Origin: Sphaerisporangium corydalis | Lineage (GTDB): Bacteria > Actinomycetota > Actinomycetes > Streptosporangiales > Streptosporangiaceae | Reading direction: 5' to 3' | NCBI RefSeq assembly: GCF_025506355.1 | Contig: NZ_JANZYP010000027.1 | Location: 1 to 64,000, forward strand | DNA: 64,000 nt | In this document: positions 18,302 to 51,356 of the stretch, one piece after another | Layout: the number at the start of each line of letters is the position of its first letter | Numbering within the stretch: the first letter of the stretch is position 1 | Translations under genes and position numbers: made by a program | The notes under the pieces: generated by a model | The model's database searches: none | Told to the model about the DNA's origin: nothing | What the model saw: the letters and a program-made list of their open reading frames with translations, nothing else

Positions 18302-18318
18302 TTGACGTTAATAGCCAA

Positions 18319-18345: not shown

Positions 18346-18354
18346 GAATCAAAA

Positions 18355-18408: not shown

Positions 18409-18478
18409 CGCCGCGACGCTCATTCCGGCGGACCGAGGGCCGGCCAAAGTGCCAGCCCGTGCCGCTTCGCCGCTGGTG

Positions 18479-18733: not shown

Positions 18734-18833
18734 TTTCTTCGCCCTTCTGTCGTATTCGCCGTTACGCAGGTCGGTGGTGGTCTCCTGGCCGGTGCCGGTC
18801 CTCAGGGTGAGGGCGCCGCACCGGCCGGGCCGG

Positions 18834-24436: not shown

Positions 24437-24654
24437 CGTTCGTCGCAGATGGTGCGGTCCATGTATCGGCGCATGCTGGCCGGCCGCATGTCATTCCAGA
24501 TCACCCCGATGTAGTCGAGGCACTCGGGCTGGGATCCCTGGGTGCCCTCGGCCTGCCAGCCGGGCGGGAGTTCCCGCTCGGCCGGCCAGACCGAGTACTG
24601 CTCCTCGTCGTTGCGCACGACGCGGTAGGCGCCCTCATCCACGTAGTCGTCCAT
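24430..24654 (-). CDS. mbtH: MbtH-like NRPS accessory protein
   Basis: The 74-residue protein starts at ATG 24652-24654 with AAGGGA upstream. The family signature is complete: NDEEQYSVWP, LPPGW, CLDYIGVIWNDMRPASMR. MbtH proteins bind adenylation domains and support their folding and activity. It is first in a two-gene minus-strand unit with the sbnB-like gene, and serves the NRPS proteins encoded at 32-48 kb. Confidence 0.95.
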   Translation of the reverse strand: MDDYVDEGAYRVVRNDEEQYSVWPAERELPPGWQAEGTQGSQPECLDYIGVIWNDMRPASMRRYMDRTICDERC

Positions 24655-24847
24655 CGGCTGTTCCCTTCTGTGTCGGCCGCCCGGTGTGCGGCGGTCAGCC
24701 AACTGTGCGCGCCGCACGGGGTGCGGCGGCAGAGAAGAACGCGCGACAGGAGCGGCGGCCGTGCGGTGCCGGTCCTTCCCTGGCGGGCGCCCGTCCCGGC
24801 GGGCGATGGTCGGATCGCGACACCCCGACTATCTGAGGAGACATCCC

Positions 24848-29773: not shown

Positions 29774-30789
29774 GGCGACACCACCCCGGGCACCTTCGGG
29801 TAGGCGCTGGCCTGCCAGACCGAGTCCAGCCCGGCCACCCAGCGGGTCAGCCGCTCCAGGCCGATGCCGAAGCCGGCGCTGCCCGGGATGCCCTCCCGCA
29901 CGACGTCCAGGTACCAGCCGTACTTCGCGGGGTTCTCGCCGGTCTCCCGCATCCGGGTGACGATCTTGACGTAGTCCGACTCGCGCTCGCCGCCGCTGCA
30001 GATCTCCCCGCAGGACTCCGGCGCGATCAGGTCGAAGCTCATCAGCGTGGACGGGCGCTCGGGGTCCTCCTTGTCGTAGAACCCGCGCGAGCCCTTCGGG
30101 TAGTCGACGATGAAGAACGGCGCCTCGGCGCGGCCGGAGATGAACTCCTCGGCCTGCCAGCCGATCTCGGTGCCCGGGTCGTGCGGGTGGCCGAGCCGGT
30201 CGAGCACCTCGGCGTGGGTCAGCACCTCGAAGGGCTGCTCGACGAACGCCGACAGCTTGGCGGTGTCGCGGCCGATCAGGCGCAGCGCGTCCTCCTGGGT
30301 GGCCAGCGCCTTGCGCACCGCCTGGCGGACCACCCGCTCGGCCAGGGCGATCGCGTCGTCGCGCGACGCGCAGGCGAACTCGACGTCGATCTGGTGGAAC
30401 TCGGCCAGGTGCCGGTGGGTGGAGCTGGTCTCCAGGGGCTCCAGGCGCACGTTCGGCGCGATGAAGAACACCTTGTCGAACGCCACCAGTGAGGTCTGCT
30501 TGTACAGGATGGCGCTGGCCATCAGCTTGTACTGGTGGCCGTAGTAGTCGACGTCCACCTGCTTGGCGCCGCGTGCCCCCGGGTCGGTGACCGGGCCGAT
30601 GAGCGGCTGGAACAGCTCGACGGCGCCCTCCGCCGCCATCAGCTCGCGCGCCCCTGCCACCAGCGCCTGCTGGATCTTGAGCACCGCCTGGGTCCTCGGC
30701 GACGTCAGATGTTCCCGGGGACCGGGCACGTCGGCCACCGCGCGCTCCGCCGGAGTGGGCATGGCGCGGAAGTCCTGCTGTGTGGTCAT
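29770..30789 (-). CDS. Archaeal-type asparagine synthetase A-like protein (class II aaRS paralogue)
   Basis: The 339-residue protein has the catalytic core of aspartyl/asparaginyl-tRNA synthetases: motif 2-like region VRLEPLETSSTHRHLAEFHQ and motif 3 GFGIGLERLTRW. The N-terminal anticodon-binding OB domain is missing. This is the form of archaeal asparagine synthetase A, which amidates aspartate with ATP and ammonia. In this operon, directly after the glutamate mutase genes and in a cluster with two Asn-type adenylation domains, amidation of 3-methylaspartate to 3-methylasparagine is the attractive inference. GGGAGG lies 6 bases before the ATG at 30787-30789. Confidence 0.85.
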   Translation of the reverse strand: MTTQQDFRAMPTPAERAVADVPGPREHLTSPRTQAVLKIQQALVAGARELMAAEGAVELFQPLIGPVTDPGARGAKQVDVDYYGHQYKLMASAILYKQTSLVAFDKVFFIAPNVRLEPLETSSTHRHLAEFHQIDVEFACASRDDAIALAERVVRQAVRKALATQEDALRLIGRDTAKLSAFVEQPFEVLTHAEVLDRLGHPHDPGTEIGWQAEEFISGRAEAPFFIVDYPKGSRGFYDKEDPERPSTLMSFDLIAPESCGEICSGGERESDYVKIVTRMRETGENPAKYGWYLDVVREGIPGSAGFGIGLERLTRWVAGLDSVWQASAYPKVPGVVSP

Positions 30790-30801
30790 GGTGAACCTCC
30801 C

Positions 30802-32070
30802 TTACTGGTGGGCGAAAGCACCGGTGTCGTAGCGATCTCTGACGTAGGACAGGGCGTGCAGCAGTTCGGCGGAGGTGAGCCCGCCCGCCTTCGGCCGGCC
30901 GCCCGTGCCGGTGATCGGCAGCGCGCCGGTCGCCGCCCACTGCAGGCGGCCGTCGTCGGCGATGTAGCTGCGGGTACGTCCGGCGTTGTCCGGGTGCAGG
31001 CAGTACGGGACGTCCAGGTAGCCCAGGGCGAAGGCGGACGTGAGCGCCCTGCCGAGGTCGGCGTGCAGGTCGAGCACCCGCCCGATGATCGAACGCGCCT
31101 CCGCCTCGATGCCGGTCGACGGGGGCGCGCCGAGGCTCGGCCCGCTCGCCCGGCCGGCCCGCGCGGCGACCCGCAGGGCCGTCACGTTCTCGGCGATGGA
31201 CGGGATCTGGCTGGCCTCGGAGGCGGTCTTCACGATCAGGCGGGCCGCGCCGCTGCGCCTGGCCAGCCGTGCGGAGGCCGAGAGCAGGCTCAGCGCCCCG
31301 GTTCGCGTGGCCGGGTACCGGCCCATGTAGGCGTAGATGACCACGTGCCAGGACACCGACGGCAGCAGGTCGGCCGCGATGTCGTGCAGCGCCCGCACGG
31401 CCTCCTCGTCCTGGCCGGCGTGCGTCTGCTGGGCGTAGCTCAGCGAGACGCTCGTGATGCCCTGCTGGGCGAAGAACATGCCCTCCAGGACGCTGATCGC
31501 GATCAGCAGCGAGGGCGGGCACAACTGGCCGAGCATGCACCCGCCGAAGCTCTCCAGGTGCGGCACGGTGCCGGTCTCCGCCAGGGAGGCGAACCGCTGG
31601 GCGACCTCCCGCCAGGCGTGGACCGAGCGGTTGACGGGCGTCCTGCTGTAGGGCAGGCAGTAGGAGATCGGACCGCCCTCGGTGGCGTCCAGCCCGGCGG
31701 CCATGAGGGCCGCGAAGATCGGGCCGGGCGAGGCGGAGCCGTGACGCACCTGCACGGGGAAATCGGCGTCGCGGACGCCGTCGAGCATGTCGCGGGTGAC
31801 CTGGGGGCCCAGTGTCACGATCGGGTAGCCGTTGAGCTCGTCCCCGGCGCGCAGCGCGCGCCCGGCGGAGGCGAAGTCGCCGACGCGGGTGAAGCTGTCG
31901 AGCGTCACCGTCCCCACGGTGCCGGGGCCGGCGTCCTTGGTGGCGATCAGCCCGGCGCGCATTTGCGCGGCGGTGCCGAACCCCATGCGCGGCTGGACCA
32001 CCAGCGTCCCCGTCCGCCGGGCGCGCTCCATGAACGCGTGGAACGTCCCTTCGGGCGCCGCCGGTGTCAT
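30802..32070 (-). CDS. glmE: Glutamate (methylaspartate) mutase E subunit
   Basis: The 422-residue substrate-binding subunit of adenosylcobalamin-dependent glutamate mutase contains VVQPRMGFGTAAQMRAGLIA, GYPIVTLGP, VRHGSASPGPIFAALMAAGL, the ATEGGPISYCLPYSR substrate loop and KTASEASQIPS. With GlmS it rearranges L-glutamate to (2S,3S)-3-methylaspartate, here as a secondary-metabolite precursor. It is about 60 residues shorter than clostridial GlmE. The ATG overlaps the glmS stop (ATGA). The accessory protein GlmL/MutL is not encoded nearby. Confidence 0.92.
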   Translation of the reverse strand: MTPAAPEGTFHAFMERARRTGTLVVQPRMGFGTAAQMRAGLIATKDAGPGTVGTVTLDSFTRVGDFASAGRALRAGDELNGYPIVTLGPQVTRDMLDGVRDADFPVQVRHGSASPGPIFAALMAAGLDATEGGPISYCLPYSRTPVNRSVHAWREVAQRFASLAETGTVPHLESFGGCMLGQLCPPSLLIAISVLEGMFFAQQGITSVSLSYAQQTHAGQDEEAVRALHDIAADLLPSVSWHVVIYAYMGRYPATRTGALSLLSASARLARRSGAARLIVKTASEASQIPSIAENVTALRVAARAGRASGPSLGAPPSTGIEAEARSIIGRVLDLHADLGRALTSAFALGYLDVPYCLHPDNAGRTRSYIADDGRLQWAATGALPITGTGGRPKAGGLTSAELLHALSYVRDRYDTGAFAHQ

Positions 32071-32543
32071 GCCCGCCGCCCCGCGTGCCGTCCCGGCATG
32101 GCCGCGGCCCTGGTCAGCAGGGAACGGAACACCGGGACGGCGGTGTCGCCGACCAGCACCGCGTCGAAGCCGGCGGCGACCAGCTCGTCCACGACGGCGC
32201 GTTCCCGGTCCTCGCTGACGCAGAGCTTGCCGCCGAGGGCGACCGGCACCCGGGCCAGCGACGGCTGGGCGCGCAGCGCCGCGATCACCTGCCGGGCCTC
32301 CTGTGCGCCGTGCCCGTTCACCGTGCTGAGCACGATCATGTCGGGGACGCGGCGCAGCGACTCGTCCATGAGCATCGCGACGGGCACGCAGGCGCCGAGA
32401 TTGGTGACCGACCAGCCGTTCTCCTCCATCAGCATTTGAACGAACAAAAGATTCCAGGTATGCGAATCCGACGGGGTGCTGCTGAGCACCGCATACGGCT
32501 TCGGCCGTTTCTCGGCGATACAGTGCGGGGACATTCCGGTCAC
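32067..32543 (-). CDS. glmS: Glutamate (methylaspartate) mutase S subunit, B12-binding
   Basis: The 158-residue (or 155, from ATG 32534) Rossmann B12-binding subunit begins at GTG 32541-32543. The cobalamin motif is SSTPSDSHTWNLLFV: Asp26 and axial His28 are kept, but the Gly of DxHxxG is Asn31. The later loop VALGGKLCV and GFDAVLVGDTAVP match GlmS. It forms the mutase with the downstream GlmE. The start is ambiguous because AAAGG is only 3 bases from the GTG and 12 from the ATG. Confidence 0.9.
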   Translation of the reverse strand: MTGMSPHCIAEKRPKPYAVLSSTPSDSHTWNLLFVQMLMEENGWSVTNLGACVPVAMLMDESLRRVPDMIVLSTVNGHGAQEARQVIAALRAQPSLARVPVALGGKLCVSEDRERAVVDELVAAGFDAVLVGDTAVPVFRSLLTRAAAMPGRHAGRRA

Positions 32544-32633: not shown

Positions 32634-36628
<3,995 letters not shown>

Positions 36629-36632
<4 letters not shown>

Positions 36633-39600
36633 GCGCTGAACCTCTTCATGATCGCGGCCATCTCGTCCTCGTTGAGTTCCGCCAGCGGGAGATACGCGGG
36701 CGCGGCGCCGATTCCCTCGCTCTGGTCGGCGGCGACGCCGAGCAACGCGCGGAGGTTGCGGGCGATGTCCCCGGCGAGGCGCTCGACGGTGGTGACGTCG
36801 TGGATCGCCGTGGAGTAGGAGATCTCGACGCTCAGCCGGCCGTGTTCCACGGCCGCCAGGATGTCCAGGAGGTGACGGCGCGTCCCGGCCGCGCCGATGG
36901 AACCGCCCCTGGGCTCATGCGGTCCCGCGTGCCGGCCGAGGCCGGTGACGCCGGCGGCGAACTGCCCCAGATAGTTGAAGTTGATCTCTGGGGCGCGGTG
37001 TGCCAGGGACCGCCGCGCGTTCGCGTCGCCCAGGTACCGCAGGATGCCGTAGCCGACGCCCCGGCGGGGGATCTCCCCGAGCTGCTCGCTGACGTTCTTG
37101 AGCAGGATGACCGGGTCGGTCTCCGACATGCCGTGCAGGTTGATGGGGAACACGCTGGTGAACCAGCCCACCGTTCGCGAGGTGTCCACGTCGGGGAACA
37201 GGTCCTCCCGCCCGTGGCCCTCCAGGCTGATCCCAGCGGTGTCGTCCCCGGTCCAGGCGTGCACCGCGGCGCCCACCGCGCTCAGCAGCGCGTCGTTGAT
37301 CTGGGTGTGGAACGCCCGGGGCACGTCCTGCAGCAGGGAGGACGTCTCGCTCTCGCTCAGCGCGACCGTGACGGCGGCCGAGGAACGCGTGGTGTTCTCG
37401 CCGTCGTGGTCGCGCGGCAGCGCCCGCTGCTCGCCCTGCGAGGCCCAGTAGCCGAGCTCGCCGAGCGCGCCGGCCGACCTCGCGTGGGCCGCGAGCTTCT
37501 CCGCCCAGGTCCGCACGGACGTCGTCTTGGCCGGCAGCAGCGGGTCGCGTCCCTCGGCCGCCTGGCGGTAGGCGGTGCCGAGATCCTCCAGCAGGATCCG
37601 CCAGGAGACGCCGTCGACCGCCAGGTGGTGGATCGCGATGAGCAGCCGCTGGCCGCGACCGGGGCCGAGCTCCATCAGGGCGGCGCGGATCACCGGCCCG
37701 CCGTCCAGGTCCATCCCGCGCTGCGCCTCGTCGGCGATGCCCGCCATCCTCGGCCACAGTTCGTCGTCGTCCAGCGGCGACAGGTCGTGGCAGGCCAGGA
37801 CGCCGGGGCCGGGGTCGCCGTCGAGGTACTGGCGCCACGCCCCGCCGTCCCGCCTGATCCGCAGGCGCAGCGCGTCGTGGTGCTCGATGAGGGTCAGCAG
37901 CGCGCGCCGCAGGACCGCGCCGTCCAGGCCGTCGGTCTCCAGCAGCTCGGCCTGGTTGAAGTGGGAGGGGTCGGGCAGCTCCAGCTCGAAGAACCAGTGC
38001 TGGATCGGCGTGAGCGGCACCTCTCCCACGAGCTTGGCCTGGTCGGCCAGGATGGGACTGGTGGACCGGGCGTTCGCGGCGATGGCCGCGACCGTCTGGT
38101 GCTGGAAGAACATCCTCGGCGTGAGCTGGATGCCGAACTTCTTCGCCCGCGCGATCACCTGCAGGCTGATGATCGAGTCGCCGCCGAGCGCGAAGAAGTT
38201 GTCGGTCACGCCGACGTCGGTGACGCCCAGGACCTCCCGCCAGATGCCGGCGATGACCTTCTCCGCCGCGCTGTGCGGCGCCGACGCGGACGCCGGTCGG
38301 GCCTCGGGCGCCGGCAGGGCGCCCCGGTCGGGGTCGCCCGCCGCCGTGCGCGGCAGCCGGGGCAGCGTGACGTAGGCCGACGGCAGCATGGAGGCGGGCA
38401 GCCGCCCGCTCAGGAACGCCCGCAGTTCCGGCTCCTCGGGCGCCGCCGGTCCGGCGGGCACCACGTAGGCGACCAGTTCGCCGTCGTGGACGGCGGTCGC
38501 GGCCTCCGCGACGGCGTCGTGGGCGGTCAGCGCCGTGTCGACGTCGCCCAGCGCGACGCGGTCCCCGCGCACGACCACCTGGTCCTCGCCGCGCCCCGCG
38601 AACCGCAGCTCGCCGGACGGTGACCAGCTCACCAGGTCGCCGGTGCGGTACGGGTTCTCGCCGCCGACCAGCAGCTCCCCGGGTACGCCGACCGGCACCG
38701 GCAGGTCGCGGTGGTCGACCACACGGACCTGGGCGGCCCCGGACGGGACGCCGCGGACCTCGGCGGGGATGGTGGCCGTGGCCCCCCACGCCGCGATGGC
38801 GCGCTGCTCGGCGTCACTGAGCATGCTGACCTGGGACAGGGGGGTCTTGGGCTGGTCGGCGAGGTGGGACAGCAGGGTCGTGTAGTGGCCGGCCATGCGT
38901 TCGACGGTGGCCCGGTCGAACAGGTCGGTGGGGTAGTCGATGTTCCCGGTGAGGCCGTCACCGGTCTCGTGGAGGGTCAGGTTGAGGTCGAATTTGGCGA
39001 GGCCGCCGGTGATGGGGGCGGGGGTGATGGTGAGGCCGGGGAGGGTCCAGGTGGGGGTTTCGGTGGTGGTCTGCAGGACGAGCATGGCTTGGTAGAGGGG
39101 GTTGCGGGTGAGGTCGCGTTGGGGGGCGAGTTCTTCGACGATGCGTTCGTAGGGGAGGTCCTGGTGGTCGTAGGCGGTGAGGGCGGTGTCTTTGACGCGG
39201 TGCAGGAGGTCGGTGAAGGTGGGGTCGCCGGTGAGGTCGGTGCGCAGGACGAGGCTGTTGACGAACAGGCCGATGAGGTTCTCTGTTTCGGTGTGGGTGC
39301 GTCCGGCGGTGGGGGTGCCGACGGCGATGTCGTCTTGTCCGGTGTAGCGGGACAGCATGACCTGGAAACCGGCGAGCAGGGTCATGAACAGGCTGGCGTT
39401 GGCGCCGGTGGCGAGGTCGCGCAGGGCGGTGACGGTGGCGGACGGGACGGCGAAGGCGACGGCGTCCCCGTGGCCGGCGCGGGCGGGGCGGCGGGGCCGG
39501 TCGGTGGGCAGGTGCAGGGGTCGCAGCCCGTCGAGCTGGGTGCGCCAGTAGGCGAGCTGGGTCTGGAGGTGGTCGGTGGCGAGCTGCCGGTCCTGCCAGG

Positions 39601-42600
39601 TGGCGTGGTCGGCGTATTGGACGGGGAGGGCGGGGAGGGGTGCCTGGTCGTGGCCGGTGGCGGTGGTGTAGAGGTGGCCGAGTTCGCGGGTGAGGATGGC
39701 TTCCGACCAGCCGTCGAAGACGATGTGGTGCAGGCAGATGACCAGGACGGCCTGGTCGGGTGCGGTGTGCAGGACGGTGGCGCGGAGTAGCGGGCCGGTG
39801 GCCAGGTCGAAGGGGGTGGCGGCGAGGCTGTTGACGTGGGCGGTGATGGTGGCCTGGTCGTGGCCGGTGAGGTCGGTGACCGTCACGGTGACGAGGGTGG
39901 GGGGGTCGATGATCTGGTGGGGCCGGCCGGTGTCGTCGGCGACGAACCGGGTGCGCAGCACCTCGTGCCGTGCCACCAGGTGTGACAGTGCCTCCTCCAG
40001 TGCGGCCAGGTCCAGGGTGCCGTCCAGGCGCAGGGCGATCGGGACCACGTAGTCGTCGCGGCCGGGCTGCAACTGGTCCAGGAACCACAGTCCCCGCTGG
40101 GCCGAGGACAACGGCACCGGCCTCGAATGGTCACGCGGCACCGGCCGCGACTCCTCCTGGGCGGCGGCGCCCATGCCGGGCAGCAGAGCGGCCAGCGCGG
40201 CGATGGTGGGGGCCTGGAACAACGCCCGCAGGGGCACCTCCACGGCCAGCTCGCGGCGGAGGCGGGAGACGACCTTGAAGGCGAGCAGCGAGTGTCCGCC
40301 GAGGTCGAAGAAGTTGTCGTGCGCCCCGGGATCGGTGACCCCGAGGACGTCCTGCCAGATGCCGGCGAGAAGGCGCTCGGCGGGCGTACGCGGCGGGGTG
40401 CGCGCGGTGTCGTGCGCCGTGCCCGTGGCCGGCAGGGCCTTGTGGTCGGTCTTCCCGTTGGGGGTCAGCGGCAGGGCGGACAGGGGCACGAACGCGGCAG
40501 GGATCATGTACGAGGGCAGGGTGCGGGCGGCGTGGGCCTTGAGCTCCGCCGCGCCGGGCGGCGCGGCGCCGGGAACGGGCACCAGGTAGGCGACCAGCCG
40601 CTGCACGCCCGGGGTGTCCTCGCGGACGGTGACCGCGGCGGCGCCGACGGCGGGGTGGCCGGCCAGGGTGGCCTCGATCTCGCCGAGCTCGATCCGGTAC
40701 CCGCGCAGCTTGACCTGGGTGTCGATGCGCCCGATGAACTCCAGCTCCCCGCTGGGCAGCCAGTGGCACAGGTCGCCGGTCCGGTACAGGCGCCGCCGGT
40801 GCCCGCCGAGCTCCAGCTCGACGAACCTCTCCGTGGTCAGCTCGGGACGGTTGAGGTAGCCCCGCGCCACGCAGATGCCGCCCAGCAGGCACTCCCCGGC
40901 CACGCCGACGGGGACCGGCAGGCCGTGGGCGTCCACCACGTAGGCCGTGGTGTTGGTGATGGGCGTGCCGACCGTGATCGCGCCGGTGACGTCGTCGCCG
41001 ACCTGGACGGTGGCCGACATGACGTTGGCGACGGAGCATTCGGTGGCGCCGTACTCGTTGTAGATGACGGCGCCGGGCTCGCACACCGCCAGCAGCCGCC
41101 GGGCCAGGTCGGCGGTGAGCTCCTCGCCGCCCAGCACCAGCGTGCGGACGGAGAGCTTCACCCCGTCCGCCTGGGCCGAGGAGACCAGCAGCTCGGCGTG
41201 CGAGGGGGTCATCTTCAGGAAGCTGACCGACGCCCCCGACAGCAGCCGCTCCACCGCGGCGGCGAACGCCGACTCTCCCGGCCGGGGCACCGGCACCGCG
41301 ATCGGCAGCCCCTGCATCAGGGGCAGGAACAACGCGGTGACGGTGAGGTCGAAGGCGACCGGCGAGTACAGCAGCGTGCCCAGCTCACCGGCGGGCGGAT
41401 AGGCCTGGTCGCACCAGTGCAGGTAGTTCACCACCCCCTCGTGCTCGATCATGACGCCCTTGGGCCTGCCGGTGGACCCGGAGGTGTAGATGACGTAGGC
41501 GAGGTTGCGCGGGGTGGCCAGCGGCGGGGGGTCGGTCGCCGGGCAGGTGGCCACCTCGGGCCACTGGGTGTCGACGAGCAGGCGGGCGACATGGCCGGGG
41601 AGCCGCCCGGCGAGGCTTTCCTGGGTGACGACCAGGGGCACGGCGGCGTCGTCCAGCATGAAGGTCAGCCGCTCGGCCGGGTACTCGGGGTCCAGGGGGA
41701 GGTAGGCGCCGCCGGCCTTCAGGATCGCCAGCAGCGTGACGACCAGGTCGGGGCCGCGCTCCAGGAACACCCCCACCAGGACCTCCGGGCCGACCCCGCG
41801 GGACCGCAGGTGGTGCGCCAGCCGGTTGGCCCGGGCGTTGAGCCGCCCGTGGGTGAGCACCTGGTCCCCGAAGACGACGGCGGGCTCGTCCGGGTGGGCC
41901 TCGGCCCGCGCCGCCACCAGCCCGTGGATGGTCTGGCCGGCGGGGAACGGCCCCTCGGTGTCGTTCCACTCCACCAGGATCCGGTCCCGCTCGGCGTCGC
42001 CGAGCATACTGACCTGGGACAGGGGGGTCGTGGGCCGGTCGGCGAGGTGGGACAGCAGGGTCGTGTAGTGGCCGGCCATGCGTTCGACGGTGGCCCGGTC
42101 GAACAGGTCGGTCGGGTAGTCGAAGTGCCCGGCCAGTTCGCCGTCCACCTCGCGCAGCGACAGGTTGAGGTCGAACTTGGCGAGGCCGCCGGTGACGGGG
42201 GCGGGGGTGATGGTGAGGCCGGGAAGCGTCCAGCCCGGGGTTTCCGTGGCGGCCTGCAGCACGAGCATGGCCTGGAACAGGGGGTTGCGCGTCAGGTCGC
42301 GCTGCGGGGCGAGTTCTTCGACGATGCGTTCGTAGGGGAGGTCCTGGTGGTCGTAGGCGGTCAGGGCGGTGTCTTTGACGCGATGGAGCAGGTCGGTGAA
42401 GGTGGGGTCGCCGGTGAGGTCGGTGCGCAGGACGAGGCTGTTGACGAACAGGCCGATGAGGTTCTCTGTTTCGGTGTGGGTGCGTCCGGCGGTGGGGGTG
42501 CCGACGGCGATGTCGTCCTGTCCGGTGTAGCGGGACAGCATGACCTGGAAGCCGGCGAGCAGGGTCATGAACAGGCTCGCCCCCGCCCCCGCCGTGATGT

Positions 42601-43390
42601 CGCGCAGGGCCGTCACGGTGTCGGCGGGGACGGTGAAGCGGACCGCGTCACCGCGACCGCCGCGGGTGGCCCGCCGGGGCCGGTCGGTGGGCAGCTCCAG
42701 AGGCTGCAGGCCGTCGAGCCGGGTGCGCCAGTAGGCGAGCTGGGCCTGGAGGCGGTCGGTGGCGAGCTGCCCGTTCTGCCAGGTGGCGTGGTCGGCGTAC
42801 TGCACCGGCAGGGCGGGGAGAGGTGCCTGGTCGTGGCCGATGGCAGCGGTGTAGAGGTGGCCGAGTTCGCGGGTGAGGATGGCTTCCGACCAGCCGTCGA
42901 AGACGATGTGGTGCAGGCAGATGACCAGGACGGCCTGGTCGGGTGCGGTGTGCAGGACGGTGGCGCGGAGTAGCGGGCCGGTGGCGAGGTCGAAGGGGGT
43001 GGCGGCGAGGCCGTTGACGTGGGCGGTGACGGTGGCCTGGTCGTGGCCGGTCAGGTCGGTGACCGCCAGGGCGACCGGTGCCGGGGGGTCGATGATCTGG
43101 TGCGGCTGACCGGTGTCGTCGGCGACGAACCGGGTGCGCAGCACCTCATGGCGTGCCACCAGCCGCGACAGTGCCTCTTCCAGTGCCGCCACGTCCAGCG
43201 TCCCGGCGAGACGCAGGGCGATCGGGACCACGTAGTCGTCGCGGCCGGGCTGCAGTTGGTCCAGGAACCACAGTCCCCGCTGGGCCGAGGACAACGGCAC
43301 CGGCTTCGAATGATCCCGCACGGGCAGGTGACGGGCCTGCTGGTGCCGGATACGGGAGAGCAGACGCGCCTGCGTCGAGCCGTTTTCCAT
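36629..43390 (-). CDS. NRPS C-A-T-C-(truncated A)-T-E
   Basis: The 2253-residue protein has module 1: C (HHIVFDG), A (about 475-985, specificity code D-L-T-K-V-G-E-V, Asn-type) and T (DLGGHSLL). Module 2: C almost identical to the first, then only about 170 residues of A (about 1527-1700), then T (ALGGDSII) and E (HHLAVDGVSW; EGHGRE; NYLGQF), with a COM-like tail (NEDEMAAIMKRF). The remnant keeps A6-A9-like pieces (GELLVGG, YRTGD, GRGEDQVVVRGD) but lacks A1-A5, and its A10 lysine position reads AGDPDR. It cannot activate an amino acid, so this T must be loaded in trans. The E domain predicts a D-residue there. Confidence 0.93.
38790..43330 (-). repeat. Duplicated condensation domains inside one NRPS gene
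   Basis: The C-domain coding segments at about 38810-40120 and 41990-43320 are near-identical over long runs; for example 39110-39360 and 42290-42540 differ at only scattered bases. This indicates recent duplication or gene conversion within the gene and may be tied to loss of the second A domain. Confidence 0.85.
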
Positions 43391-43392: not shown

Positions 43393-46300
43393 CTATTCCT
43401 CACCTTGGGCGTCGATCAGTTCGAGCAACTGGGCCTTGATGCCGGCGATCGACGGCGACAGGAACAGGCCCCTGAGGCTGATGCGGATGCCGGTCAGCCG
43501 GTCCACCTGGTTGACCAGCTGGACCGCGCGGAGCGAGTGGCCGCCGACCTCGAAGAAGTTGTCGTGCACGCCGACGCGGTCCACGCCGAGCAGATCGGCC
43601 CACACCTCGGCGAGCGCCCCCTCGATCTCGTCGCGCGGCGCCACGTGCGCCGCGCTGGGCGCGAGGTCCGCGGCATCGGGCGCGGGCAGCCTGTTGCGGT
43701 CCACCTTGCTGTTGGCGGACAGGGGGAGCGCCGCGAGCGTCATGAACACGGCCGGGACCATCGCCGGCGGCAGCGACTCCCGGCACAGGGCGCGCAGCCC
43801 GGCGACCTCCAGGTCACCGGTCGCCGGCACGCAGTACGCCACCAGGTGCTTGTCACCGGCGCCGTCCTGCCACGCCACGACGGCGCAGGCCGCCACGCCG
43901 GGGTGCGACAGCAGGACCGCCTCGATCTCACCCGGCTCGACGCGCACGCCGCGCAGCTTGAGCTGGCCGTCGATGCGGCCCAGCAGGTCGAGTTCACCGC
44001 CGGCGGTGAACCGGCCGAGGTCGCCCGTCTTGTACATGCGGGCGCCGCGGTCACCCGTGAACGGGTCGGCGGGGAAGCGTTCCGCGGTCAGCCGGGGCCG
44101 GCGCAGGTAGCCCCGGCCGACGGACCGCCCCCCGAGGTAGACCTCGCCCACCGCGCCGACGGGCACCGGCCGCAGCGAACGGTCCAGCACGTACACCGTC
44201 TGGTTCATCATCGGGCGACCGGCCAGGACGGGGGAGTCCGGCGAGGCGTGCCAGTACGTCGTGTCCACCGACACCTCGGTGGCGCCGTAGAGGTTGATCA
44301 GGCCGTCGCCGAACCGGTCGGCGAACCGCCGCACCAGCACTTCCGGCAGGCCCTCGCCGCTGCAGAACGCGTACCGCAGGGTGGTGCAGTCCGCCGGGTC
44401 GGCCTGGGCGACGAACATGTCCATCAGGCTGGGGACGAAATGCAGCCCGACGACGCGGTGACGGCGCATGAGCGACCCCACGTGCGCCATGTCCAGGCGG
44501 GACGCCCCCGGCACCAGGACGACCGTGCCCCCCTGCCAGAGCGGCCACAGGATCTCGTACGCGGAGACGTCGAAGGTCACCGGCGTGGCCTGCAGGAAAC
44601 TCTCGCCCGCGTGGATCGGGAACGCCGCCTGCATCCCCGCCATGTAGCTGACGACGCCCTGGTGCTCGATCATGACGCCCTTGGGCCTGCCGGTGGACCC
44701 GGAGGTGTAGATGACGTAGGCGAGGTCGCGCGGTGTCGCCAGCGGCGGGGGTTCGGTGGTGGGGAAGGCCGCCACCTCGGGCCACTGGGTGTCGACGAGA
44801 ACGCGGGCGACGTGCTCAGGGAGCCGCCCGGCGAGGCTTTCCTGGGTGATGACCAGGGGTGCGGCGGTGTCGTCGAGCATGTAGGTGAGGCGGTCGGCGG
44901 GGTAGTCGGGGTCGAGCGGAACGTAGGCGGCGCCGGCTTTGAGGATGGCCAGGAGGGTGACGATGAGGTCGGGGGTGCGGTCGAGCAGGACGGCGACGAG
45001 GGTTTCCGGTCCGATGCCGTGGGTGCGCAGGTGGTGGGCGAGCTGGTTGGCACGCTGGTCGAGCGCGCGGTGGGTGAGGGTCCGGCCGTCGTGGACGACG
45101 GCGGGTTCGTCGGGCCGGATGGCGGCCTGGGCGGCGATCAGTTGGTGGATGGTCTGGTCGGCGGGGAAGGGTCCCTGGGTGTCGTTCCAGTCGACCAGCA
45201 TCCGCCGCCGCTCGGCCTCGCTCAGCATGCCGGCCCGCGACAACCGGGCCGCCGGGTCGTCGGCGAGGGACCGGAGCAGGGTGAGGTAGTGGCCGGCCAT
45301 GCGCTCGGCGGTGGCCCGGTCGAACAGGTCGGTGGGGTAGTAGAGGAAACCCTTGGCGCTGTGGTCCTCCTGCAGGGTGAGGTCGAAGGTGAGGTCCACC
45401 TGCGAGCCGGTCGCCCGCAGCGGGACCTGGTGGACGTCCAGGCCGGGCAGCGTCCAGATCTGGCGCGCGGAGGTGGTCTGCAGGACGATCATGGCCTGGA
45501 ACAGCGGGTTGCGCGTCAGGTCGCGCTGCGGGGCGAGCTCCTCGACGATCCGCTCGAAGGGGAGGTCCTGGTGCTCGTAGGCCGCCAGGGCGGTGTTCCT
45601 GACGCGGTGCAGGAGGTCGGTGAAGGTGGGGTCGCCGGACAGGTCGGTGCGCAGGACGAGGCTGTTGACGAACAGGCCGATGAGGTTCTCGGTCTCGGTG
45701 TGGGTGCGTCCGGCGGTGGGGGTGCCGACGGCGACGTCCTCCTGGCCGGTGTAACGCGACAGCATCACCTGGAAACCGGCCAGCAACGCCATGAACAGGC
45801 TCGCCCGTGCCTTGGCGGCGATGCGGCGCAGGGCGGTGAGCGTGTCGGCGGGAATGGTGAACGCGACCGCGTCGCCCTCGCGGTCCCGGGCGGGGCGGCG
45901 GGGCCGGTCGGTGGGCAGCTCAAGAGGCCGCAGGCCGTCGAGCTGGGCGCGCCAGTAGGCCAGCTGTGCCCGCGGGCGGTCACCGGTGAGCCGCTGGTGC
46001 TGCCAGGCGGCGTAGTCGGCGTACTGGACGGGCGGGTCGGGCAGGGCGGCGGGGGCGCCGGTGGTGGCCGCGGTGTAGAGGCGGGCCAGCTCGCGGGCGA
46101 AGATGGCCTCCGACCAGCCGTCGAACACGATGTGGTGCAGGCAGACGACCAGGACGGCCTCGCGGGGTCCGGTGCGCAGGACCGCGGTGCGCAGCAGCGG
46201 GCCGGTGGCCAGGTCGAAGGGGGCCGAGGCGGCGGCGTTCACCTGTGCGGTGACCGTGGCCTGGTCCTGACCGGTCAGGTCGGTGACCGTCACCGCGACC

Positions 46301-46764
46301 GGCGCCGGCGGGTCGACGATCTGGTACGGCCGGCCGTCCTCGTCGGCCGCGAACCGGGTGCGCAGCACCTCGTGCCGTGCCACCAGGTGCGACAGCGCCC
46401 CTCGCAGCGCGGCCACGTCCAGGTCCCCGGTCAGGCGCAGGGCCACCCGGATCAGATACTCGTCACCGCCGGGCTCCAGCTGGTCCAGGAACCACAGACG
46501 CTGCTGCGCCGACGACAACGGCACCCGCCCGCCCCTCGCCCCCGGCCGGGGCCCCTGCGAGACCCCGCCCCGCCTGACCCGCCGCACCGGTTCCCGGATA
46601 CCACCGGCCGCCGGAGGCGGCGTCGCCTTCGTGATCCGCCCGGCGGTGTCGTCCGCGCCGCCGAGTGTGCCGAATTCGCTGTCGCCCTCGATTCGATCCG
46701 TGGCGAAGACGTCTCGCCAGATGCGAAGAATTCGCGCTTCATCCGCTGACCTGACATTCGTCAT
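43393..46764 (-). CDS. NRPS (vestigial T)-C-A-T with Ser/diaminopropionate-type adenylation domain
   Basis: The 1123-residue protein begins with a carrier-protein-like stretch (ILRIWRDVFATDRIEGDSEF) whose GGxS motif has become GGADD. The phosphopantetheine serine is lost, so this T is dead. Then come C (HHIVFDG), A (about 527-1020; YTSGSTGRPKG, GRIDGQLKLRGVR, A10 NSKVDR) and T (EVGGHSLR, Ser about 1077). The specificity positions read D-V-Y-H-F-S-L-V, close to the serine code D-V-W-H-L-S-L-I. With sbnA/sbnB in the cluster, diaminopropionate, which fits a serine-sized pocket, is the likelier substrate. It is the first gene of the minus-strand operon; the next NRPS starts 2 bases after its stop. 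Confidence 0.92.
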   Translation of the reverse strand: MTNVRSADEARILRIWRDVFATDRIEGDSEFGTLGGADDTAGRITKATPPPAAGGIREPVRRVRRGGVSQGPRPGARGGRVPLSSAQQRLWFLDQLEPGGDEYLIRVALRLTGDLDVAALRGALSHLVARHEVLRTRFAADEDGRPYQIVDPPAPVAVTVTDLTGQDQATVTAQVNAAASAPFDLATGPLLRTAVLRTGPREAVLVVCLHHIVFDGWSEAIFARELARLYTAATTGAPAALPDPPVQYADYAAWQHQRLTGDRPRAQLAYWRAQLDGLRPLELPTDRPRRPARDREGDAVAFTIPADTLTALRRIAAKARASLFMALLAGFQVMLSRYTGQEDVAVGTPTAGRTHTETENLIGLFVNSLVLRTDLSGDPTFTDLLHRVRNTALAAYEHQDLPFERIVEELAPQRDLTRNPLFQAMIVLQTTSARQIWTLPGLDVHQVPLRATGSQVDLTFDLTLQEDHSAKGFLYYPTDLFDRATAERMAGHYLTLLRSLADDPAARLSRAGMLSEAERRRMLVDWNDTQGPFPADQTIHQLIAAQAAIRPDEPAVVHDGRTLTHRALDQRANQLAHHLRTHGIGPETLVAVLLDRTPDLIVTLLAILKAGAAYVPLDPDYPADRLTYMLDDTAAPLVITQESLAGRLPEHVARVLVDTQWPEVAAFPTTEPPPLATPRDLAYVIYTSGSTGRPKGVMIEHQGVVSYMAGMQAAFPIHAGESFLQATPVTFDVSAYEILWPLWQGGTVVLVPGASRLDMAHVGSLMRRHRVVGLHFVPSLMDMFVAQADPADCTTLRYAFCSGEGLPEVLVRRFADRFGDGLINLYGATEVSVDTTYWHASPDSPVLAGRPMMNQTVYVLDRSLRPVPVGAVGEVYLGGRSVGRGYLRRPRLTAERFPADPFTGDRGARMYKTGDLGRFTAGGELDLLGRIDGQLKLRGVRVEPGEIEAVLLSHPGVAACAVVAWQDGAGDKHLVAYCVPATGDLEVAGLRALCRESLPPAMVPAVFMTLAALPLSANSKVDRNRLPAPDAADLAPSAAHVAPRDEIEGALAEVWADLLGVDRVGVHDNFFEVGGHSLRAVQLVNQVDRLTGIRISLRGLFLSPSIAGIKAQLLELIDAQGEE

Positions 46765-47005: not shown

Positions 47006-48556
47006 ATGAAAAGGCTCCTTTCGGCGGACCAGGCCACTCAGGGGACCATCGTCGATGACATCCGCGGCCACGCCGTCCGCGCACCCCACGCACCCGCGAT
47101 CGTGACGCAGCGGGCCGTCATCTCCTACCGGGAGCTCACCGACCGGATCGAGCGCCTGGCCCGGACGCTGGCCGCCGCAGGAGTCGGCGCCGAGAGCCGC
47201 TGCGCCGTCGCCGTCGAGGACGACGTCCACGCCGTGATCGCGATGGCCGCCGTCATGCGCGCCGGCGGGGCGTTCCTCACCCTCGACCCCGGGCAGCCGG
47301 TCCAGCGCCTGCACGCGATGGCCGCCGGCGTGGACACCCGGTTCCAGATCACCACCGCCGCGCTCGCCGGACGGCTCGCCCTGCCCATAGGCGGCCCCGC
47401 CATCCTGATCGACGACCTGGGCGGCACGGCCGGGGCCACGCTCCCGGCGCACGTCCCGCCGCGTTCGCTCGCCTACATCAGCCACACCTCGGGGTCGACC
47501 GGCACCCCCAACCCCGTCATGATCGAGCACGGCGGGCTGGGCGCGTACCTGCGGTTCATCGTCGCCGACGGCGGGCTCGGCCCGCACACCGCCGCGCTGC
47601 AGCTCGCGCCGTTCGGCTACGACGCCTCGATCCGTGGCGTCTTCGCGCCGCTGGCCGCGGGAGGCCGCCTGATCCTGCTGCCCCGCTCCACCCTGCTGCG
47701 TCCCGCCGCCCTGGCCGCCGCCGTGGAGGACCACGGCGTCAACGCCATCCTGAGCAGCACCCCGACGTTGCTGACCGCTCTGGCCCAGGACGAGGACGTC
47801 GCCGCACGGCTCGGCGGCGTCGGCCTGATCCTGTGCGCCGGGGAGTCGCTGCGCCCCTTCCTCTCGGCCGGGGGCAGGCGGCTGACCGCCGGCCGGCTGG
47901 TCAACCACTACGGGCCGACCGAATGCACGATCACCTCGACCCGCCACGACGTCCCCCCTCGGCCGGACACCGAGGCCGACCTGATCGGCACCCCCATCGA
48001 CGGGGTGACGGTCCGTCTGCTCGACCCGGGCATGCGCGCGGTCCCCGACGGCGCGACCGGCGAGATCTACATCGGCGGCGCGGGCGTGGCACGCGGCTAC
48101 GGCGGCCGGCCCGCCCTGACCGCCCAGCGGTTCGTCCCCGACCCCTGCGGCCCGCCGGGCGCCCGCCTGTACCGGACCGGTGACCTGGCCCGGCGCGGCC
48201 CCGGCGGCGTCCTTGAGTTCCTCGGCCGCGACGACAGGCAGGTCAAGATCCGGGGCTACCGCGTGGAGCCGGCCGAGGTCGAAGGCGCCCTGCTCGGCCA
48301 TCCGGCCGTGACCGGGGCGGTGGTCACCTCCGCCGCCGACGAACGCGGCCGCGTCCACCTCGTCGCCCACGTCATGGGCGCGCTCGCCGGCGTCACCGAC
48401 GCGGCGCTGCGCGCGCACCTCGCGCTCACCCTGCCGCCCCACCTGATGCCCCGGCGGTTCCACCGCCTCGAGACCATGCCCACCACCCACAGCGGCAAGA
48501 CCGACCGGACCGCCCTCCTTGCGCACGCTCCGGCCCACGCCGGCCCGGGCGCCTGA
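47006..48556 (+). CDS. Free-standing NRPS adenylation protein
   Basis: The 516-residue protein starts at ATG 47006, which fits the domain start (an in-frame ATG at 46937 adds 23 unlike residues). It has one AMP-binding domain. Core A3 is altered (TSGSTGTPNPV, with the usual Lys-Gly replaced by Asn-Pro). A5 (NHYGPTE), A7 (YRTGD), A8 (GRDDRQVKIRGYR) and A10 (SGKTDR) are intact, so it is probably active. The specificity positions read D-A-R-S-L-A-H-I, with an unusual Arg at position 239 that could pair with an acidic side chain. Substrate not recognised. It probably loads the carrier protein encoded next, and perhaps the A-less module in trans. Confidence 0.88.
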   Translation: MKRLLSADQATQGTIVDDIRGHAVRAPHAPAIVTQRAVISYRELTDRIERLARTLAAAGVGAESRCAVAVEDDVHAVIAMAAVMRAGGAFLTLDPGQPVQRLHAMAAGVDTRFQITTAALAGRLALPIGGPAILIDDLGGTAGATLPAHVPPRSLAYISHTSGSTGTPNPVMIEHGGLGAYLRFIVADGGLGPHTAALQLAPFGYDASIRGVFAPLAAGGRLILLPRSTLLRPAALAAAVEDHGVNAILSSTPTLLTALAQDEDVAARLGGVGLILCAGESLRPFLSAGGRRLTAGRLVNHYGPTECTITSTRHDVPPRPDTEADLIGTPIDGVTVRLLDPGMRAVPDGATGEIYIGGAGVARGYGGRPALTAQRFVPDPCGPPGARLYRTGDLARRGPGGVLEFLGRDDRQVKIRGYRVEPAEVEGALLGHPAVTGAVVTSAADERGRVHLVAHVMGALAGVTDAALRAHLALTLPPHLMPRRFHRLETMPTTHSGKTDRTALLAHAPAHAGPGA

Positions 48557-48629
48557 CCCGCGGCCGTCACCCCGAACAGGACGTCCACCACCACCAGCTC
48601 ACCTCCCCGGCCTTGGAAGGGCGGAACCC

Positions 48630-48953
48630 ATGACGACGACGAACGACGACCTCGCCTACACCGACGACATGACCCACACCGGCGACATGACCTCCATCGA
48701 GGACCTGACCGAGCTGATCGTGGGCGTGTACCAGGAGACGCTTCGCCACGACGGGCTCGGACCCGACAGCGACTTCTACGAGGAGGGCGGGGACTCCATG
48801 ACCGCCTTCCAGATCATCGCCCGGCTGCGCGCCGCACTCGACACCGACATCCCCGTCGCGCTGGTGTTCGCCTGCCCCACGCCCATCGACCTCGCCACCG
48901 CCGTCGCCGGCCTCGCCGGCGGACTGCCGGGCGACGGCACCAGCCTCAACTGA
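48630..48953 (+). CDS. Free-standing peptidyl carrier protein
   Basis: The 107-residue protein starts at ATG 48630 with GGAAGG 10 bases upstream. An acidic, repetitive lead (DDMTHTGDMTS) precedes a PCP fold with the phosphopantetheine serine in EEGGDSMTAF (Ser56). It lies between the stand-alone adenylation gene and the LanB-like gene in one operon. It is the presumed carrier on which the first amino acid is activated and possibly modified by the LanB-like enzyme. Confidence 0.9.
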   Translation: MTTTNDDLAYTDDMTHTGDMTSIEDLTELIVGVYQETLRHDGLGPDSDFYEEGGDSMTAFQIIARLRAALDTDIPVALVFACPTPIDLATAVAGLAGGLPGDGTSLN

Positions 48954-48968
48954 ACGGAGAGACCGGAC

Positions 48969-51356
48969 ATGAACGACGCATCGGCGCCGTACGTCGGCCA
49001 ATGGCGGCTGTGGACCCAGATCTCGGTACGGGGACCCGGCTTTCCCGCCTCGGGGGTGCTGCGCCTGGCACCCGAAGGCCTCGCCGCCGCGGCCGGCGGG
49101 TTCGGCACGGGGGAGCTTTCCGGGCCCAGGTGGGACGAGTTCGAGAAGCGGTTCGGGGACGCGGCGCTGTCGGTGTCGGGGGTGCTGCAGGAGATCGCCG
49201 GCCTGCCGTTGTTCCAGACGGCGGTGGCCTGGCAGAACCGCACGGTCCTGAAGTCCGGGATCGGCCCGTTCCTGCGGTGGACGCCCGAGGGGGGCAAGCG
49301 GCCGAGCATGGCGCGGCAGCGCGAGGAACTGGTGGCGCACTACTGGCAGCGGTTCTGCGTGAAGAACGACACCATCGGGTTCTTCGGCCCGGTGGGCTGG
49401 GGGGAGTGGGACCGGTCGATACGCGGCGTGCAGGTCGAGCCGGGGACCGGGCTGATCGCCAGATCCGGCGTGTACTTCGCGAGCTGGGCGGTCGACGCGC
49501 TGGCACGCAGCGTCAGCGAGGACCCGGCGGTGCGGGAGTGGCTCGCACCGCACCGGATGCCGTTCGTACGGACCGACGGCGCCGAGGTGAGCCTTCCGGG
49601 CCTGCCCCCCGTACGGGTCGGCCCTGTCGAGCAGGAGGTGCTCGGGCTCTGCGACGGCACCCGGACGGCGCACGCCATCCAGCGGGAACTCGGCGACGAC
49701 GTCGACGTGCGCGGCGTGCTCGAGACGCTGGTCAGGCGCCGCTACATCGTGTGGCGGCTCGACGTGCCCGCCGACACCTACCCCGAACGCCGGCTGGCCG
49801 GGCTCCTCGCCCAGATCGGCGACCCCGTCGTCCGCGAGCGGGCCCTGGCCAAGCTGGCGGTCCTCGAACGCGGCCGGGACCGGGTCCGCGACGCGGCGGG
49901 CGACCCCGAGGCGCTCGTGGCCGCCATGGAGACGCTCGAAGGCGAGTTCACCGAGCTGACCCAGGTCGCCGCGCAACGCCAGAAGGGCGGGGGCAACGCT
50001 CCCTGCCGGGCGCTGATCTACTCCGACAGCACGCGCGCCGCCCGGGTCCGGGTCGGCACCGAGCTGCTCGACGCCCTCGGCCCGCTGGACCTGCTGCTGT
50101 CCGGAGGGGCCTGGCTGACGGCCGGCCTGGCGCGGCGGGTCATGGCCCGCGCCCGCCAGGTGTACGCCGAGGAGACCCGGAACCTCGGCGACACCCCCCT
50201 GGACCTGGCCACCTTCTGGTTCGCGTGCATCCCCATGCTGCACAGCGGCGTCGTCGCCGACGCCGAGGACCTCAAGCGGGAGTTCGCGAAGTGCTGGGAG
50301 GACATCCTGCGCCTGACGCCCGGCGAGCGGCACGTGCGCCTGACCCGGGCGGACATCGCCGGCCGGGTACGCGAGGCCTTCGGCGAGCCCGCCGACGAGG
50401 GGTGGGCCACGGCCCGGTACGCCTGCCCGGACGTGCTGGTCGTCGCCGACGACGCCGAGGCGGTGAACCGGGGGGAGTTCGAGCTCGCCCTCGGGGAGCT
50501 GCACCTGGCCATCAACACGCTCGGCGCGTCGCTCTTCGTCAACCAGCACCCCGACCGCGACGAGCTGATCGGGCTCACTGACCTCGACCACCCCGGGCCG
50601 CGCCTGATGCCGTTGCAGCCCAAGGAGCACCGCGCGCGGCTGTCGGCCCGCACCCGGTACTCGCTCGTCCGCGACCAGGACTACTGCGTCGCGCTGGCGG
50701 ACTCCAGCGCCGACCCGCACCGCCCGCGCACGATCCCGAGCGCCGACGTCGTCGTGCGGGACGACGACGGCCGCCTCGTCGCCGTGCTGCCCGACGGGAA
50801 CGTGTTCGACCTTGTGAACATCTTCTCGCAGGGCCTGACCATGCTGGTGCTCGACATGTTCCGCATCGTGCCTGAGGACGTCGACCACTTCCCCCGGGTG
50901 ACGATCGACCGGATGATGGTGGCGCGGGAGACCTGGCGGTTCGACCCTTCGACGATGGACTTCGCCGACGAGAAGAACGAGGCGAAGCGGTTCGTCCGGG
51001 CCGGGCGGTGGCGCGAGGCGCAGGACCTGCCGCGCTACGTGTTCGTGGTGTCGCCCACCGAGCCTCGGCCGTTCTACGTGGACTTCCACAGCCCGGTGTA
51101 CGTGAACATCTTCGCCAAGGCCGTGCGCCGGCTCCAGCGCGACGACCCCGGCGGGCGGCTCACCATCAGCGAGATGCAGCCCACGCCCGAGCAGACCTGG
51201 CTGACCGACGACAAGGGCGACCGCTACACCTCGGAGCTGCGCTTCGTGGCCGTCGACGACGCCCCGGTCCAGGCCGCCGGCCCGCCCGCCCCCCTCGCCA
51301 AGCAGCTTCCCCGGCCGGTGCCCGCCGGCGTGGACGGGCTGGTGCCGGCCACCTAG
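48969..51356 (+). CDS. LanB-like protein, glutamylation (tRNA-dependent) domain only
   Basis: The 795-residue protein starts at ATG 48969 with GGAGAG upstream. It matches the lant_dehydr_N domain of class I LanB dehydratases throughout (CVKNDTIGFFGPVGWGEWD; CRALIYSDSTRAARVRVGTE; NIFSQGLTMLVLDM; EMQPTPEQTWLTD then YTSELRFVAVDD). It ends where that domain ends, so the SpaB_C elimination domain is absent. In RiPP pathways such single-domain proteins use aminoacyl-tRNA, either to glutamylate Ser/Thr (with a separate eliminase) or, as PEARLs, to add residues to a peptide C-terminus. No separate eliminase and no adjacent precursor were found. Co-transcription with an A and a T protein suggests action on a carrier-bound substrate. 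Confidence 0.85.
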   Translation: MNDASAPYVGQWRLWTQISVRGPGFPASGVLRLAPEGLAAAAGGFGTGELSGPRWDEFEKRFGDAALSVSGVLQEIAGLPLFQTAVAWQNRTVLKSGIGPFLRWTPEGGKRPSMARQREELVAHYWQRFCVKNDTIGFFGPVGWGEWDRSIRGVQVEPGTGLIARSGVYFASWAVDALARSVSEDPAVREWLAPHRMPFVRTDGAEVSLPGLPPVRVGPVEQEVLGLCDGTRTAHAIQRELGDDVDVRGVLETLVRRRYIVWRLDVPADTYPERRLAGLLAQIGDPVVRERALAKLAVLERGRDRVRDAAGDPEALVAAMETLEGEFTELTQVAAQRQKGGGNAPCRALIYSDSTRAARVRVGTELLDALGPLDLLLSGGAWLTAGLARRVMARARQVYAEETRNLGDTPLDLATFWFACIPMLHSGVVADAEDLKREFAKCWEDILRLTPGERHVRLTRADIAGRVREAFGEPADEGWATARYACPDVLVVADDAEAVNRGEFELALGELHLAINTLGASLFVNQHPDRDELIGLTDLDHPGPRLMPLQPKEHRARLSARTRYSLVRDQDYCVALADSSADPHRPRTIPSADVVVRDDDGRLVAVLPDGNVFDLVNIFSQGLTMLVLDMFRIVPEDVDHFPRVTIDRMMVARETWRFDPSTMDFADEKNEAKRFVRAGRWREAQDLPRYVFVVSPTEPRPFYVDFHSPVYVNIFAKAVRRLQRDDPGGRLTISEMQPTPEQTWLTDDKGDRYTSELRFVAVDDAPVQAAGPPAPLAKQLPRPVPAGVDGLVPAT

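Follow-up and report, generated by a model that had tools for sequence, protein, structure and literature searches.

According to Yu and van der Donk (2024, PMC11212132), about 2000 nonribosomal peptide synthetase (NRPS) or polyketide synthase (PKS) clusters hold so-called 'lantibiotic dehydratases'. For one of these, SnaE of the threopeptin cluster of Stackebrandtia nassauensis, heterologous expression and gene deletion showed that it lengthens a nonribosomal product, for which analogy suggests the activity of a peptide aminoacyl-tRNA ligase (PEARL), and the same study already states that some NRPS-linked PEARLs are fused to thiolation (T) domains. Here, a LanB-like gene of this kind was analysed in a stretch of 64,000 nucleotides of Sphaerisporangium corydalis (positions 1 to 64,000 of contig NZ_JANZYP010000027.1, our contig C83; hereafter the window), in which it follows genes for a stand-alone adenylation (A) protein and a stand-alone peptidyl carrier protein, next to an NRPS. 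With moderate confidence, this trio is read as a tRNA-dependent starter unit for the NRPS, in which a dicarboxylate is loaded, extended by a PEARL and handed over to the first synthetase, NRPS1.

The window protein is like SnaE in being a stand-alone LanB-like PEARL candidate in an NRPS cluster, in having no precursor gene found beside it (by a test that is noisy here) and in the expected aminoacyl-tRNA extension of an unactivated carboxylate. The origin of that carboxylate would differ: in threopeptin biosynthesis a ureido-forming condensation (C) domain (motif EHHXXHDG) on an A-T-C-A-T NRPS makes it, whereas here a dedicated A protein or acyltransferase (AT) together with a carrier is conserved and the motif was unseen. 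With the PEARLs that work on ribosomally synthesised and post-translationally modified peptides (RiPPs), such as TglB, BhaB7 and AmmB, it shares the domain family and, by motif, the ATP-grasp and CCA-end residues. The substrates of those enzymes are the C-termini of ribosomal carrier peptides; here, a carrier protein is proposed in place of the peptide. TbtB and the split LanBs have the same glutamylation-domain fold, yet they are described without the PEARL Asp and Arg, glutamylate Ser and need an eliminase.

Two further systems link tRNA to nonribosomal chains. In livipeptin biosynthesis, an L/F-transferase type of tRNA-utilising enzyme works with an NRPS-like protein that lacks C domains, and fusions are reported, although enzyme family and chemistry are other than those proposed here (PMC10548850). 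In pacidamycin biosynthesis, PacB joins aminoacyl-tRNA chemistry to a nonribosomal chain (PMC12945691). Unlike a ligase that spends ATP to act on a carboxylate, PacB is a GNAT-fold/FemABX-like transferase. Its substrate is reportedly carrier-bound. A first-pass annotation of the window had considered a bridge between tRNA-dependent and thiotemplate biosynthesis to be possibly undescribed, which no longer holds given the SnaE-type NRPS PEARLs published in 2024 (PMC11212132) and the PacB and L/F-transferase bridges. What appears to be new here is the A- or AT-carrier-PEARL cassette, of which no account was found in the open-access literature, subscription papers and supplements being outside the scope.

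Results and discussion

Open reading frames (ORFs) and Pfam matches bear out the A, carrier and LanB-like genes of the first-pass annotation, divergent from a three-gene NRPS on the opposite strand (Table 1). The stop of the A gene is separated by 73 bp from the ATG of the carrier gene, and the carrier stop by 15 bp from the LanB ATG, ahead of which GGAG is found; because of this spacing, a single operon is likely. In the Pfam scan, the PF04738 match of the LanB-like protein is split over three stretches and the elimination domain PF14028 is not found. The annotated lack of a separate eliminase was confirmed as well, since all six PF14028 matches in this genome lie on contigs C97, C24 and C117, in LanB-type loci away from the window, and none on C83. 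Beside the trio (46.7–52 kb) no clearly conserved small ORF was found, in a test that is noisy in GC-rich DNA; its best syntenic match (E 4e-5, in locus L013) is located in the divergent promoter region. The annotated absence of a precursor thus stands for the immediate surroundings of the trio but not for the whole cluster, in which a LanM gene and a candidate precursor lie about 27 kb from it.

Table 1 Features of the window and predicted functional residues of the LanB-like protein
Feature	Position	Strand	Basis and remarks
Stand-alone adenylation (A) protein	47006..48556	+	PF00501 E 2.1e-65, PF13193; specificity letters DARSLAHIT(K)
Stand-alone peptidyl carrier protein	48630..48953	+	PF00550 E 5.6e-14; GGDSM intact, serine present
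PEARL-like ligase (LanB N-domain only)	48969..51356	+	only PF04738, E 3.8e-47
Predicted ATP site D488, E510, H512, E756, R758	LanB-like protein		motif equivalence to published PEARL residues
Predicted CCA-end contacts Y125, R128; also R21	LanB-like protein		motif position
NRPS1, C-A-T	43393..46764	-	A code by eye DVYHFSLVD (script output DVYFFSLVD)
NRPS2, C-A-T-C-(A core missing)-T-epimerisation (E)	36629..43390	-	A code DLTMVGEVA
NRPS3, C-A-T-thioesterase (TE)	32634..36632	-	A code DLTMVGEVA
GlmS-like B12-binding subunit	32067..32543	-	PF02310
GlmE-like methylaspartate mutase subunit	30802..32070	-	PF06368 E 3.3e-85; TIGR01503 165 bits, under cut-off 390
AsnRS-derived asparagine synthetase A	29770..30789	-	NF005052 406 bits, cut-off 368
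Glutamate-synthase-like flavin mononucleotide (FMN) protein, no clear role	28481..29770 (start not fixed)	-	PF01645
SbnA, diaminopropionate synthesis	27495..28484	-	TIGR03945 394 bits, cut-off 350
MbtH-like protein	24451..24660	-	profile match
SbnB, diaminopropionate synthesis	23423..24436	-	TIGR03944 393 bits, cut-off 327
LanM	18834..21833	-	TIGR03897 653 bits
Candidate LanM precursor ending PADTTCCGGETSISRIV	18479..18850	-	true start probably further in

In PMC11117183, Asp542, Glu801 and Arg803 of TglB, plus Glu564 and a His, are given as ATP-binding PEARL residues, and PMC11962472 names the BhaB7 counterparts D558, E813 and R815, with E575 and a His. The equivalent residues of the window protein were judged by motif and spacing from those described in these papers. 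Its D-to-E spacing of 22 equals that of TglB (542/564), compared to 17 in BhaB7 (558/575), and the E-x-R is present as in both. D488, E510, H512, E756 and R758 are invariant in 8/8 aligned relatives, and the signature DEHER that they form is found in 147 of 149 full-length relatives from 96 loci; these are related proteins, with many loci contributing two, and not 149 independent cases. The exceptions are one truncated protein and L176, a protein 47% identical to the PEARL of Actinophytocola oryzae, which has RAPER and stands with an A that looks damaged. Of the predicted CCA-end contacts, R128 (the counterpart of BhaB7 R208 by motif position) is present in 149/149 and Y125 (that of Y205) in 146/149. 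A plain LanB dehydratase is disfavoured by the presence of D488 and R758 and the lack of PF14028. The 'glutamylation-only' label of the first-pass annotation therefore fits the domain content (PF04738 only), while as a statement on activity it is probably wrong: the motif residues indicate that the protein is probably PEARL-like rather than a glutamylating LanB.

An AlphaFold2 model of the protein (44 sequences, mean pLDDT 87.2, pTM 0.86) was compared to solved structures with Foldseek, which returned 11 matches at E ≤0.001, all LanB-family (MibB, TbtB, MadB, NisB, GodF). Against the TbtB glutamylation-domain fold, the TM score is 0.64 at 17% identity. When solved structures were searched by sequence, neither the single protein (E up to 1) nor its profile (E up to 0.01) had a match. 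In a quick tree, along the lines of the phylogeny that had been proposed, the window protein groups with NRPS-linked PEARLs at a support of 92 (not starred), and the multi-PEARL clusters are separate from them (95, starred); SnaE is not among the loci, the own-genome outgroups have long branches, and one outgroup, L004, is a wrong ORF without a Pfam match that fell in the NRPS-linked side. The multi-PEARL clusters, L083 (Salinispora oceanensis contig 1, 219–236 kb) and L127 (from the genus of the window), have three or four tandem PEARL-like genes, L083 additionally with a weak match to TPR and a protein of the TldD/PmbA type, and may be of RiPP type. Among their seven proteins, DEHER is found in four and DRHER, DDHER and DRH-- in the other three.

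One scan of a species-genome collection yielded 427 relatives, the best 80 of which represent 66 loci, all with actinobacterial record titles. A carrier gene ending at most 500 bp upstream of a LanB was found in 53/66 loci, an A of this type in 54/66 and both together in 49/66, so that the association of the three genes suggested by the first-pass annotation is conserved. Based on 60 PF00550 matches in the 9.48 Mb of the own genome (one genome only), a random 500 bp on one strand has a carrier in about 0.2% of cases; the carrier-LanB adjacency is not chance. In 46/66 loci a five-gene cassette is found in the order LanB, A, pyridoxal phosphate (PLP) enzyme, carrier, LanB. The three-gene A-carrier-LanB form without a PLP gene is seen in the window and L013 only, and these two form, together with L014, a single-LanB group within the cassette clade of the quick tree (support 100 for the three, 100 for the clade). 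In 13 loci, no carrier is this close to a LanB: L033, L041, L052, L057 and L072 (carrier at 1.1 kb), plus eight whose contigs end in or next to the cassette (L048, L049, L056, L059, L067, L069, L075, L078).

More distant relatives, in 24 further stretches, are mostly located beside NRPS/PKS-type domains and mostly without a stand-alone A-carrier pair. Three of the PEARLs are fused to a T domain: as A-T-PEARL in L119, where the contig end cuts the A and an NRPS gene starting with C follows, and as C-A-T-PEARL in L179 and L181. Within the genus of the window, 6 of 11 genomes (own included) have a match at E 1e-40, the own one alone being close. Among 396 scanned genomes of the phylum, 2 (own included) have matches, a count based on two candidates scored per genome and uninformative on absence.

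What is loaded onto the carrier is suggested by the pocket of the A domain and by a natural replacement of the loader. Asp235 and Arg239 are both present in 55/55 A domains of this type, including that of the window, while Arg239 is found in only 5/127 other A domains of the loci. One of these five is the stand-alone A of L010, where methylaspartate mutase, PEARL, acyl carrier protein and A are encoded in one run of genes. An arginine in the pocket suits a second carboxylate on the substrate, for which we take ACV synthetase to be a parallel. In the matching cluster of A. oryzae DSM 45499 (L014 and L081), the order is carrier-PEARL-AT, with the start of the AT gene (12313; PF00698, E 1.2e-93) overlapping the PEARL stop (12316). 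This AT has the motifs GHSQG and YASH, the latter presumably the methylmalonyl mark of ATs. Of 202 candidates in the A. oryzae genome, 150 were scored; none of these is an orthologous A, and the best reaches 43%. The genes found of the remaining cluster match those of the window, GlmS and GlmE included; as these are kept in A. oryzae with an AT instead of an A, charging the carrier cannot be the only purpose of the methylaspartate route. Another locus from the family of A. oryzae, L178, has a stand-alone carrier and an intact-looking AT (PF00698 E 2.2e-76, 34% to the A. oryzae AT), divergent from a PEARL that is 39% identical to the A. oryzae PEARL. A and AT have one outcome in common, an acyl-carrier on which a carboxylate can stay free, as a PEARL requires. 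Genes for an EF-G-like GTPase, an ABC ATPase and an APH-family kinase lie nearby in L178 (8192–17224), with no clear NRPS in view.

Taken as a starter unit, the trio would work as follows. The A protein would activate a dicarboxylic amino acid of the aspartate or 3-methylaspartate type and load it onto the stand-alone carrier, with one carboxylate staying free; A and carrier are assigned by homology, and the substrate is suggested by Arg239 and the AT swap. The PEARL-like protein, with its ATP-grasp site, would phosphorylate this free carboxylate and couple it with the amino group of an aminoacyl-tRNA, after which hydrolysis would release the tRNA; this reaction is deduced from known PEARLs, and the residues are assigned by motif. 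The first C domain of NRPS1, ahead of which no active loading module is found, could accept the carrier-bound product; here, the architecture is observed and the transfer inferred. The end point would be that of the threopeptin ureido route, in which a PEARL extends an outward carboxylate, but no ureido-forming C domain would be involved. The first-pass annotation had suggested aminoacyl-tRNA chemistry on a carrier-bound amino acid, to which the setting indeed points, although the target is more likely the free carboxylate of a carrier-bound dicarboxylate. In a wider form, to which we give even credence, an interchangeable loader (an A, or a PKS AT giving (methyl)malonyl) would charge a dedicated carrier with a dicarboxylate, and a LanB-fold ATP ligase would link its free carboxylate with an aminoacyl-tRNA to make a chain-reversed NRPS starter, the carrier protein replacing the ribosomal carrier peptide of RiPP PEARLs. 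The cassette for such carrier-protein PEARL catalysis recurs across many actinobacterial genera.

Several observations weigh against this proposal. Asp235 is retained in these A domains, and to our knowledge, the specificity letters of the window A match no published Asp or Glu code. In L179 and L181, the A that precedes the fused PEARL has the hydrophobic-type code DLLLLGGTF; not all T-linked PEARLs can therefore depend on a dicarboxylate. A second PEARL and a PLP enzyme, present in 46/66 loci, have no counterpart beside the trio of the window. In L033, L041 and L052 (Amycolatopsis), PEARL-PLP-PEARL genes are found without an adjacent carrier; the L033 genome does encode an A of this type (DARVVSQMT) and a carrier, in ORFs of their own that lie behind an NRPS gene, some 20 kb away from the PEARLs. 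L177 has carrier-PEARL-PEARL with no loader in view, and in L057 (8785–11084) neither A nor carrier follows the LanB. Homology of L057 to the full cassette stops with its LanB, the end of which also matches the second LanB of a related cassette, so either A, PLP and carrier genes were lost via recombination between tandem LanBs or the assembly collapsed. The cluster also houses the LanM and its candidate precursor. Finally, a true LanB of the own genome, L001 (PF04738 and PF14028), reads D, G, Q, D, R at the signature, agreeing in 2/5 letters over a poorly aligned stretch, and a profile comparison of L001 with the PEARL-like proteins left the signature region unaligned (probability 0.1). Because of this, the distinction between PEARL and LanB rests on published motifs and spacing, the absent PF14028 and the setting.

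As for SnaE (PMC11212132), the PEARL could instead act late, extending a carboxylate of the NRPS product during its growth or after its release; the A and carrier would then serve the assembly line and not provide the PEARL with its substrate. This is unlikely, though it has more than its precedent to recommend it. The ureido motif occurs in 4/101 loci scanned, all distant relatives (L118, L183, L184, L188), from which it seems that NRPS-linked PEARLs gain their carboxylate in more than one way; C-A-T-PEARL fusions exist with a non-acidic A; and the NRPS2 module without an A core could be the client of the stand-alone A, which also counts against the starter-unit proposal. That module stays A-less in A. 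oryzae, however, where the stand-alone A is gone. Moreover, EHHxxHDG is absent from the window NRPS, which has LHHIVFDG (three), IHHLAVDG and FHHILLDG, and from L013/L079, L014/L081 and L015–L078, many of these loci covering the NRPS only in part. The NRPS product therefore has no obvious free carboxylate, and a late extension leaves both the carrier-PEARL adjacency and the A/AT swap unexplained. An aminoacyl-tRNA serving as nitrogen donor only, with later cleavage leaving an amide in place of the carboxylate, as known from ammosamide pathways, is improbable. Nitrogen donation from Gly-tRNA by PEARLs is described (PMC11117183), and the cluster encodes a glutamate-synthase-like FMN protein, but this gene belongs to the NRPS operon and is kept in the AT version of A. 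oryzae, and no glycine-oxidase-like gene was found among the window proteins scanned with Pfam (not every ORF).

Glu-tRNA-dependent glutamylation of a carrier-bound Ser or Thr, followed by elimination through another protein to a dehydroamino acid, would agree with the PF04738-only content, the fold near the TbtB glutamylation domain and the Ser/Thr-dehydratase-like nature of the PLP enzyme in 46/66 cassettes, and the poor alignment of L001 at the signature leaves it some room. We consider it very improbable: the PEARL-specific Asp and Arg are present by motif, where split LanBs are said to have Tyr and Leu (PMC11117183), no PF14028 is found on the contig, and no PLP enzyme lies beside the trio of the window. 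Equally little credence is given to the LanM cassette and its candidate precursor as partner of the PEARL. LanM matches are found in 9/10 genomes or records tested, about 17–21 kb from the PEARL in seven, and small peptides with TTCC near the end lie beside LanM in the window, L014 and Salinispora. In two of the ten, however, LanM is on other contigs than the PEARL, and none was found on the plasmid of L010. The peptides beside LanM in S. fungicidicus and CL7 end in DTSVSAPS or DTSVSAPN, that of S. fungicidicus being without TTCC, and LanM and the LuxR-AAA gene of genomes G407 and G446 have no NRPS match in the 20 kb analysed around them, with no close PEARL detected in either genome. The PEARL-carrier adjacency is also far tighter than that of PEARL and LanM. 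A precursor-like peptide, as considered in the first-pass annotation, thus accompanies many clusters, but it goes with LanM. LanM and precursor are separable from the PEARL and not obligate cluster members; the set looks like a portable cassette rather than the partner of the PEARL, perhaps with a regulatory or peptide-signalling role.

Other genes of the cluster

By their codes, the NRPS1 A domain is probably Ser- or diaminopropionate-like (DVYHFSLVD) and the DLTMVGEVA domains are probably Asn-like. By eye, the first 45 residues of NRPS1 resemble a carrier remnant without the serine, which is not seen in the L013 and L014 proteins; the stand-alone carrier may have taken over from one that was once fused at this place. 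In the second module of NRPS2 (residues ~1540–1700), the A core is lost while the A C-terminal subdomain, T and E are kept, and the same is observed in L013/L079 and L014.

The NRPS operon runs on through GlmS, GlmE, asparagine synthetase A, the FMN protein and SbnA, followed beyond it by SbnB, MbtH, an MFS pump, LuxR-type regulators and LanM. The asparagine synthetase A gene beside the methylaspartate mutase subunits (28481–32543) indicates a possible 3-methylasparagine pathway, and judging from the A codes, diaminopropionate and (3-methyl)asparagine are likely special units of the product. Matching clusters are present in Actinomadura sp. DC4 (L013 and L079) and in A. oryzae; in the latter no MbtH was found in the matching cluster, and its LanM is only 46% identical to that of the window. 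On the minus strand of the window (15377–21833), LanM, the candidate precursor (...TTCCGGETSISRIV) and a LuxR-AAA regulator are encoded together.

Conclusion

A bridge between tRNA and NRPS via a LanB-like PEARL was already known, and the role of most of the roughly 2000 NRPS/PKS-linked 'lantibiotic dehydratases' was left open by the 2024 work. The cassette described here is a compact, purifiable system of three proteins (A, carrier and ligase), with a natural control in the AT that replaces the A. If the proposed reading is true, nonribosomal peptides can start in a tRNA-dependent manner from a carrier-bound dicarboxylate. The products of such clusters would then become more predictable, and amide links of a reversed or branched kind could be made by a new route.

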